Shown: in pieces, positions 10,504 to 41,060 of the stretch | Position numbering within the stretch: the stretch's first letter is position 1 | How the letters are laid out: every line of letters starts with the position of its first letter | Assembly (NCBI GenBank): GCA_002261195.1 | Contig: MVBO01000002.1 | Span: forward strand, 300,639 to 364,638 | Direction of reading: 5' to 3' | Length of the DNA stretch: 64,000 bases | Source: Bifiguratus adelaidae | Lineage: Eukaryota > Mucoromycota > Endogonomycetes > Endogonales | The notes under the pieces: generated by a model | What the model was told of the DNA's origin: nothing | Database searches by the model: none | The model's input: only the letters and a program-made list of their open reading frames with translations | Position numbers and translations under genes: made by a program

Positions 10504-10577
10504 CACCGTGGATGGGATTCGAACCCACGACCCTAAGCTTAGGAGGCTTATGCGCTAATCCACTGCGCCACCACGGC
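10504..10577 (-). tRNA. tRNA-Arg (anticodon CCT)
   Basis: A complete cloverleaf folds on the minus strand: acceptor GCCGTGG/CCACGGT (with a G-U first pair), D stem GCGC/GCGC, anticodon stem TAAGC/GCTTA around loop CTCCTAA, five-base variable region, T stem GTGGG/CCCAT around TTCGAAT, and discriminator G. Loop positions 34-36 read CCT, decoding AGG arginine. No intron; 74 nt. Internal A and B boxes are intact and an oligo-T follows. Confidence 0.95.
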
Positions 10578-19690: not shown

Positions 19691-19762
19691 GGGAATATGG
19701 TCTAGTCGTATGATTCGCGCTTCGGGTGTGCGAGGTCCCGGGTTCAATTCCCGGTATTCCCC
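19691..19762 (+). tRNA. tRNA-Pro (anticodon CGG)
   Basis: A 72-nt intronless tRNA folds on the + strand: acceptor GGGAATA/TATTCCC, D arm with GGTCTAGTCGTATGATT, anticodon stem CGCGC/GTGCG around loop TTCGGGT (anticodon CGG, proline), T stem CCGGG/CCCGG around TTCAATT, discriminator C. The TTCGGGT loop with GGTCTAG D arm is typical of eukaryotic tRNA-Pro. Confidence 0.95.
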
Positions 19763-39384: not shown

Positions 39385-40202
39385 ATGGACACAACGACTC
39401 CTGTGTCCCAGCAACCATCGAACGCATCCGGGAAATGGTCTGACGCGGTACGAGATGTCAGTAATGGCGGGTCTCAGAGCAACAGAACGACACCTGAGCC
39501 CAAGGACACACAACCTCCCGTTCCATTGGTTGGCATGGGAGTCAAAGCAACAACGGCCATTGGTGAAGAAGTATCTGGCACGGTATTCACGTACGATACG
39601 ACGACAAACTGCCTCGTGATAGATATCCTTTTCATGCCTATACAGCTTTAGCTACTTCTTATGATATTGTCCTTAACTAATGCTTACAGTCGCGTGCTTT
39701 TCCAGGTAGCAGTAAATCCACCTTCAAGATACTCAAAATCAGCCATCTGAAAGACTTTGCACTCACGCCCGTTGATCCCAATACACCCAGTATTGTCCCC
39801 GAGATCAAACACATCTCTTTGGATCGGGTGCGAGCTCGTGAAGCTGCGGCGGTGAAAGAGGCGCAACAGCGACTGGCCCGCATTGGCGAGGGTGTAACAA
39901 CAGAAGCCCAGGACATCTTTGATGCACTTTCAAAGACGTAAGTATTGGACTTTGCGCATCGCAGGGTATCAACATGCATTATAGACTACCATGTCGTTGG
40001 GCCAAAGATAGCATTGTGGTGCTAGACGAGGTGATTATCTCTCCGCCATATGATGTAGCCAATTGTAAAGCCAATGCGTCTTCATCCGCATCCTTAGCAC
40101 GCGTCAAGAAAGTGGTATGTAACACCAGTATGCTTCTGAACCCTACTAATGTTCTGCCTGTAGCTGGAGGGTGAAAAGAAGCGTCTTCAATCTGCAAAGT
40201 AG
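39385..40202 (+). CDS. LSM12: LSM12 homolog, containing a U12-type AT-AC intron
   Basis: LSM12 combines an N-terminal Lsm fold with an anticodon-binding-like domain; in yeast it associates with Pbp1/Pbp4. Exons 39385-39622, 39688-39937, 39985-40114 and 40164-40202 give 218 residues. The Lsm part includes VGMGVKATTAIGEEVSGTVF, TYDTTTNCLVIE, then FKILKISHLKDF; the AD domain has IKHISLDRVRAREAAAVKEA, IGEGVTTEAQDIFDALSKT, LPCRWAKDSIVVLDEVIISP and PPYDVANCKA. Intron 1 (39623-39687) starts ATATCCTTTT, has TCCTTAAC and ends TTAC, the signals of a minor-spliceosome AT-AC intron; only that 3' end keeps frame with this donor. A U2-type alternative (GTGATA at 39616 to CAG at 39689) is also frame-compatible but has a poor donor. 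Domain identity is firm. Confidence 0.88.
39623..39687 (+). other. Predicted U12-type AT-AC intron in LSM12
   Basis: 65-nt intron: 5' splice site ATATCCTTTT (39623-39632) matches the U12-type consensus; branch site TCCTTAAC (39670-39677) is also a full match; the branch A lies 11-12 nt from the 3' end TTAC. Splicing at the following AG (39689) would shift frame to a TAG within seven codons. This combination of long, degenerate-intolerant motifs is very unlikely by chance at a coding junction. Confidence 0.8.
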
Positions 40203-40336: not shown

Positions 40337-41060
40337 ATGGTAAGTGGGTGCATCCGTCGGGCATGGAAAGATTATGGCCAAAGATGGCCATTGGTAGGGT
40401 GTAGTAGTGCAGCTTCGCGGTATCGAACATCTTGCACTACAAACAGATTGTTGCAACAGATGGATGGCCGACCATCATGGGGTGGCTTATGACATCTGCC
40501 GAATGACAGTGCGATCGTGAAAAGACGATGGGAAGGGCGACGATTAAGGCTTGATACTGACCTGGACTCTTTCATTCTACCCAGACGTTGAAAAGAAGAA
40601 ACAACGGACGTAACAAGAAGGGACGTGGACACGTGAAGCCCGTCCGTTGCCTCAACTGCTCCCGATGCGTTCCCAAGGACAAGGCCATCAAGCGATTCAC
40701 TATCCGCAACATGGTTGAGGCCGCCGCTGTGCGTGATATTGAGGAGGCTTCCGTATACGATGGTGAGTTGACTAGACTTAGGTTGGAGATGAGGATGACT
40801 CACACAGCGAATAGTGTACGCCATCCCCAAACTCTACATCAAGTTGCACTACTGTGTCTCTTGCGCCATCCACGCTCACGTCGTCCGTGTTCGTTCCAGA
40901 GAGGGCCGTCGCAACCGTGCTCCTCCACCAAGGTTCAAGTTCAACAAGGTATGTCTGGTGTGGCTTTGCATCCATCGAGCGACTAAACTAAACTTGAAAT
41001 TTGCAGGATGGCAAGAAGATCAACCCCAACCAAGCTGCCAAGGTTGCTGCCACTGCTTAA
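40337..41060 (+). CDS. RPS26: 40S ribosomal protein eS26
   Basis: eS26 lies at the mRNA exit channel of the small ribosomal subunit. Exons 40337-40339, 40585-40762, 40815-40948 and 41007-41060 encode 122 residues, the normal size. Exon 1 is the ATG alone; the large first intron (245 nt) follows immediately, as in many fungal ribosomal protein genes. The protein reads [20 protein letters not shown], then the zinc-binding [37 protein letters not shown] and [14 protein letters not shown]. All four zinc Cys are present. AATAAA at 41099-41104 gives the probable polyadenylation signal. The identification is certain. Confidence 0.98.

Follow-up and report, generated by a model that had tools for sequence, protein, structure and literature searches.

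AT-AC introns removed by the minor spliceosome have been described in the syntaxin 6 genes of fly and human (PMC2831892) and, within the Mucoromycotina, in Rhizopus and Phycomyces (PMC2846911). The intron considered here has in common with these the donor ATATCCTT, the branch site TCCTTAAC, an AC end near the branch and the presence of minor snRNAs, and differs from them in gene and position, and in that nearly all well-supported U12-type introns found in its host, Bifiguratus adelaidae, are of the AT-AC subtype. The gene concerned, LSM12, carries minor introns in animals as well: intron 1 of fly CG15735 and intron 4 of human LSM12 are U12-type introns with GT-AG ends (PMC2831892), and fly lsm12a contains a minor intron (PMC12084885). 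The likeness to animal LSM12 is one of gene and of intron class, and the ends are GT-AG there and AT-AC in Bifiguratus. The literature consulted on LSM12 and minor introns concerns animals (PMC12084885, PMC2831892), and a search that lacked most of the subscription literature yielded no paper pairing minor introns with Bifiguratus or the Mucoromycota.

Two further systems resemble the locus in part. The twintron of Drosophila prospero (PMC3564746) likewise has U12 AT-AC sites inside U2 GT-AG sites, whereas at LSM12 the paired sites differ by 7 and 2 nt, the products differ by 3 residues and not 29, the outer donor is poor and the outer pair is putative. Blastocystis likewise has an AT-AC majority (196 of 253 minor introns; PMC10639083), but it is an unrelated lineage with hundreds of minor introns as opposed to the dozen or so found in Bifiguratus.

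Examination of the window (the whole 64,000-nucleotide stretch of Bifiguratus DNA that was analyzed) leads us to conclude that positions 39623-39687 very probably constitute a U12-dependent AT-AC intron of LSM12. Judged from sequence, this intron is ordinary in kind and most likely real and wrongly annotated. Since the U12-type intron as a kind was already known, what is new is its hidden and apparently shared position, together with the AT-AC subtype bias of the genome.

Gene model and splicing signals of LSM12 intron 1

Bifiguratus adelaidae belongs to the Mucoromycotina (Endogonales), outside the Dikarya, and a protein search identified its public LSM12 protein, BZG36_00388 (P0001), at 99% identity to the gene in the window. 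Reading of the open frame across three introns places LSM12 on the forward strand, with its start codon (ATG) at 39385 and its stop at 40202. Exon 1 (coding from the ATG, 39385-39622) agrees with P0001 up to the junction region and is followed by the 65-nt, phase 1 intron 1 (39623-39687), which is supported as a U12-type AT-AC intron by its signals, the frame, a homologue profile and Pfam. Exon 2 (39688-39937) contains the remainder of the Lsm domain and the beginning of the AD domain, as indicated by the frame and by PF21166 and PF09793. Intron 2 (39938-39984, 47 nt, GTAAGT) and intron 3 (40115-40163, 49 nt, GTATGT) are ordinary GT-AG introns by sequence and frame, and they flank exon 3 (39985-40114) and precede exon 4 (40164-40202, to the stop), both defined by the frame. 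With intron 1 ended at AC, a single 218-residue open frame runs through introns 2 and 3 to the stop at 40202. Among solved structures no relative of LSM12 was found, the best match having an E value of 1.5.

Other features of the window were noted in passing. In the downstream neighbor of LSM12 (40337-40584), which we take from its sequence to resemble ribosomal protein S26, the ATG at 40337 is directly followed by GTAAGT, so an intron seems to begin just after the start codon and to end near 40584. In addition, Rfam identified two tRNA genes, at 10504-10577 on the reverse strand and at 19691-19762 on the forward strand.

The preliminary description had proposed a U12-type AT-AC intron on the strength of its donor, branch site, terminal AC and branch-to-end spacing, and direct reading recovered each of these. 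The 5' splice site ATATCCTTTT (39623-39632, forward strand) fits the RTATCCTT pattern in its AT subtype; the branch site TCCTTAAC (39670-39677, forward strand) has no mismatch; both donor and branch equal the U12 consensus; and the terminal AC (39686-39687, forward strand), whose final C is 11 nt from the branch A at 39676, is followed by the AG of exon 2. Also as described, ending the intron at AC keeps the LSM12 frame, whereas ending it with the same donor at the neighboring AG (39689) shifts the frame and runs into stops. An AT-AC intron could in principle be spliced by the major spliceosome, as the U2-type AT-AC introns of sodium channel genes demonstrate (PMC2831892), but those introns have G at +5 (PMC2831892), where the LSM12 donor has C, and the LSM12 intron has an exact U12 branch; we regard this origin as extremely improbable.

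We assessed how readily such signals arise by chance at the scale of the window and of the genome (18.6 Mb in 286 contigs). When donors matching RTATCCT or RTATCYTT were taken on both strands of the window and followed for up to 400 bases to branch-like sites, a mismatch-free branch was found solely at LSM12 intron 1. RTATCCTT occurs seven times in the window, compared with a mean of 2.78 over 100 shuffles, none of which reached seven, while TCCTTAAC by itself is not enriched (two matches, equalled in 49 of 100 shuffles). In the genome, two sites match the exact pattern ATATCCTT-N25..110-TCCTTAAC-N6..12-AC and none match its reversed control, which makes it unlikely that chance placed a perfect U12 donor and branch at the proper distance from each other. 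The predicted duplex of the branch neighborhood with the genome's own U12 (-14.0 kcal/mol) was matched by only 1 of 1000 shuffles and that of the donor region with the 5' end of its own U11 (-7.6 kcal/mol) by 40 of 1000; the duplex of the 5' splice site with U6atac was no better than shuffles, 549 of 1000 equalling it.

Comparison of the AC-ended and GenBank models

P0001 differs at the junction by the absence of exactly VIE, as splicing from GTGATA to CAG would give. This corresponds to an ordinary U2-type GT-AG intron at 39616-39689 (forward strand, GTGATA...CTTACAG), whose product is exactly the GenBank protein and in which the U12 signals would be leftovers or chance. As the preliminary description had noted, such an intron is compatible with the frame and its donor is poor. 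The donor is its only weak element, since it has the CTTACAG acceptor and, overlapping the U12 branch, the branch-like site CTAAT (39677-39681, forward strand; compare ACTAAT in intron 3). The duplex of GTGATA with U1 reaches only -1.8 kcal/mol, compared with -7.7 and -6.9 kcal/mol for LSM12 introns 2 and 3. Furthermore, U2-type splicing would cut into the Lsm domain and drop VIE where 52 of the 119 listed relatives have matching residues. The intact-looking relatives, these same 52 of 119, typically read NC[LIV][VA][LI][DENQ] at the junction, a pattern that the Bifiguratus NCLVIE fits. Taken with the chance estimates above, this makes an ordinary U2-type intron very unlikely.

Domain and homologue scores point in the same direction. 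A profile of 115 LSM12 homologues, built with both Bifiguratus models left out, scored the AC-ended model at 246.8 bits and the GenBank model at 240.0 bits, a margin of 6.8. With the Pfam family LSM12_LSM, the AC-ended model aligned over positions 6-60 of 60 at 29.6 bits, passing the cut-off of 29.5 by 0.1, whereas the GenBank model aligned over positions 6-35 only at 19.6 bits, 10 bits lower. Removal of intron 1 at AC is thus predicted to restore the conserved protein and to complete the Lsm domain. Most likely, the GenBank model arose artefactually from gene prediction in which AT-AC introns are disallowed, and it is because the public annotation misses this intron that three residues of LSM12 are lost.

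In the splicing pathway that we propose, U11 would pair with CCUUUU of the donor, U12 would pair with UCCUUAAC leaving the branch A bulged, U6atac would be delivered by U4atac, and the minor spliceosome would join G39622 to A39688, thereby finishing a Glu codon and filling in the central part of the Lsm domain (...NCLVI-E-SRAFPG...). Overall, the U12-type AT-AC reading is supported by the signals, the frame, the fit and completion of the domain, the snRNA genes and the codon damage in relatives' annotations, all of which are observed in sequence and from which we infer the actual splicing.

Minor spliceosome components encoded in the genome

Absence of the U11, U12, U4atac and U6atac genes had been named beforehand as an observation that would count against the intron; all four were found in the genome, U4atac with a score below the cut-off. 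Each Rfam model had a single match, aligned over the full length of the model: U11 scored 68.7 bits (cut-off 39), U12 53.6 bits (cut-off 53, passed by 0.6), U6atac 35.6 bits (cut-off 33) and U4atac 45.7 bits (cut-off 53). The U4atac candidate contains an Sm-like site close to its end, and it is predicted to form a long duplex with the genome's U6atac. In the U12 alignment, 4 letters stand where the model has 16 positions, which fits the atrophied stem III reported for U12 of basal fungi (PMC4133162).

Of the minor spliceosome proteins, a homologue of PDCD7 (U11-59K) scored above the cut-off. A match to the zf-U11-48K family was dropped as a U11-48K candidate, being located in the gene for the TRM13 methyltransferase; the control for this search also matched in 1 of 14 genomes. 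The CHHC finger of TRM13 (L073, C229:345476-345550) that matches this family is a trap for minor spliceosome surveys. The CENATAC and SCNM1 families had no match in the genome and likewise none in the control genomes, so we make no claim of their absence. CENATAC promotes the splicing of AT-AN minor introns in human cells (PMC8280824).

LSM12 annotations of related fungi

To follow the suggestion that orthologous LSM12 genes be compared at this position, we classified by motif count the annotated proteins of the 119 listed homologues other than P0001 (120 listed of 165 found). Nine appear to read through the junction, 25 apparently lack three residues, 52 look intact and 33 fall into a class of other proteins that are truncated, differently deleted or unmatched by the motifs; an intact appearance is uninformative as to whether an intron is present. 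In five of the nine read-through proteins, from Apophysomyces ossiformis, Lichtheimia ornata, Rhizophagus irregularis, Umbelopsis nana and Thamnocephalis sphaerospora, ILF stands right after Asp, Asn or His. Since ATATCCTTTT in phase 1 translates as ILF, it looks as if an AT-AC intron has been translated in each of these five. The remaining four have ILL (Basidiobolus ranarum) or IFL, INL or IIL (three others), and the last three tripeptides are no exact fit to the ATATCCTTTT donor. The apparent loss of three residues is exemplified by NCVCPSK, compared with NCVVLQCPSK in P0080. The 25 proteins of this class are all from Mortierellomycetes, going by organism names, and therefore are not independent cases. 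One LSM12 homologue, P0007 of Mucor velutinosus, is recorded as 'Sodium- and chloride-dependent GABA transporter 1', an apparent misnaming.

The disturbance is also visible in the alignment of 115 homologues, where four-residue windows starting at positions 75-80 contain gaps in 48-64 of 110 rows compared with 0 of 115 at the intron 2 junction; the alignment is gapped elsewhere as well, in variable stretches at 81-83 (36-37 of 110 rows) and 108-110 (25 of 115). LSM12 annotations from the Mucoromycotina, Glomeromycotina, Mortierellomycotina and Zoopagomycota all appear disturbed at this junction, which makes intron 1 look old. Annotated proteins of other early-diverging fungi, then, show damage at the same codon, the ILF read-throughs included, and relatives apparently share an AT-AC intron at this LSM12 codon.

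The three-residue class also bears on whether LSM12 intron 1 is a twintron, in which the U12 AT-AC intron is nested within a usable U2 intron and competing spliceosomes would produce LSM12 with and without VIE, or the U2 form would serve as a fall-back at low levels of minor splicing. A full set of overlapping sites is present in frame, the outer pair extending 7 nt and 2 nt beyond the inner one; 25 of the 119 listed relatives apparently miss three residues at this junction; and failure of minor splicing leads to the use of alternative or cryptic sites in CENATAC-depleted human cells (PMC8280824) and miso mutant flies (PMC12084885). The decoy donor GTGATA is poor, however, and gene finders forced to GT-AG ends would yield the same pattern of proteins. 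In addition, 62 rows of the 115-row alignment have a residue at position 79, without exception Leu or Ile, so that, stepping from residue to base, a donor in codon 78 would probably have T at +5 and not the G of U2-type donors. At codon 78 itself, which supplies the GT, 63 rows have a residue, only 29 of them Val and 31 Ala, the other 52 rows being gapped. We therefore consider a twintron improbable, if less so than an ordinary U2-type intron, and retain the simple U12-type AT-AC intron as our reading.

The consequences of a shared position would reach beyond LSM12. A 2023 survey described the high numbers of minor introns in some fungi as surprising and named Rhizophagus and Basidiobolus (PMC10639083). 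If the shared AT-AC position is hidden by annotation, surveys of annotated introns would undercount the AT-AC subtype, and database proteins would be wrong at such junctions.

Other candidate minor introns in the genome

A genome-wide search for RTATCCTT followed by TCCTTRAC returned 25 rows compared with 1 for the control, representing 20 distinct donors (18 AT and 2 GT). Relaxing the branch to CTTRAC raised the AT-AC count to 41 rows, representing 37 distinct donors (control, 15 rows), while the corresponding GT-AG pattern returned 23 rows from 21 distinct donors (control, 13 rows). The full donor ATATCCTTTT was present at 15 distinct loci, as counted from the TCCTTRAC and CTTRAC searches, and all but one, on contig C241, were read in frame. 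Of the 15, 12, including LSM12, join two open frames at the AC end, and two others (L011 and L015) lack an AC-ended coding junction and were discounted as introns. Of the 37 AT donors with CTTRAC, 24 lack ATATCCTTTT; 4 of these 24 were read in frame, whereas all GT-AG donors were read. Also discounted as introns after reading in frame were five AT donors with ATATCCTTG (L010, L020, L023, L027 and L029), three with ATATCCTTTA or ATATCCTTTC (L012, L019 and L028) and L042.

Ten of the eleven AT-AC loci other than LSM12 were submitted to Pfam, and six had a match over the cut-off that spans the junction. These six are PIG-B-like (L014), syntaxin 6 (L016), ELP4 (L018), an importin (L025), FANCD2 (L044; C218:158269-158336 with flanks, PF14631) and a DNA-PKcs-like protein (L043; C216:100914-100977 with flanks), in which the intron lies inside the domain matched by PF08163. 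Coding junctions were likewise read in a PPME1-like protein (L007), an inositol polyphosphate kinase (L021) and two unknown proteins (L034, and L006, the locus outside the submission), and a possible TBC protein (L049) had a Pfam match below the cut-off. Where a name is more specific than the Pfam family (PPME1, PIG-B and the type of importin), it denotes a resemblance.

GT-AG candidates fared differently. The donor GTATCCTTTT occurs in 2 of the 21 distinct GT-AG donors, neither of which has a convincing coding junction. The sole plausible GT-AG coding junction, judged by eye, is that of L054 (GTATCCTTTC), which has no Pfam match. Pfam was queried with 10 of the 30 spliced GT-AG peptides (from 22 donors); no match crossed a junction, and one peptide had a sub-threshold match that ended before it.

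With 12 coding-supported AT-AC introns compared with one plausible GT-AG intron, the minor intron set of Bifiguratus looks dominated by the AT-AC subtype, for a set that comprises exact pattern matches only and whose coding support was judged by eye. By comparison, AT-AC introns account for 26% of human minor introns (PMC10639083), and Phycomyces has 8-9 AT-AC and 8-12 GT-AG minor introns, about half being AT-AC (PMC2846911). The 12:1 ratio is higher than the human share (P = 9e-7) and differs from that of Phycomyces by Fisher's test (P = 0.04 for 9:8 and 0.004 for 8:12); these values are rough, since different methods underlie the reference sets.

One extension of these results is that the Bifiguratus minor spliceosome serves almost only AT-AC introns and that a conserved set of such introns, LSM12 included, lies hidden across early-diverging fungi, a proposal that we think could equally well prove right or wrong. 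In this proposal, the set would escape notice through the insistence of gene finders on GT-AG ends, which damages the proteins. Conversion to the U2 type is commoner for GT-AG minor introns than for AT-AC ones (PMC2831892), and, if the proposal is true, AT-AC dominance would be the expected end point when GT-AG minor introns turn into major ones and AT-AC introns cannot. A fungal genome that is small, encodes all four minor snRNAs and contains roughly a dozen minor introns, mostly AT-AC, would provide a compact natural test both of the idea that minor introns with GT-AG ends are converted to the major type whereas those with AT-AC ends persist and of the minimal needs of AT-AC splicing.

Finally, we examined the ELP4 junction among relatives. 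Of 198 homologues found, 120 were listed, and 119 of these show no change in length over the 11 residues at the junction; the search used a 130-residue piece, and its length rule excluded full-length relatives, the Bifiguratus GenBank ELP4 among them. A separate observation concerns ELP4 of Gigaspora rosea (P0139), in which DDILTFQCGGL is found in comparison with DDILGGGL exactly at the Bifiguratus AT-AC junction, possibly reflecting a hidden AT-AC intron.
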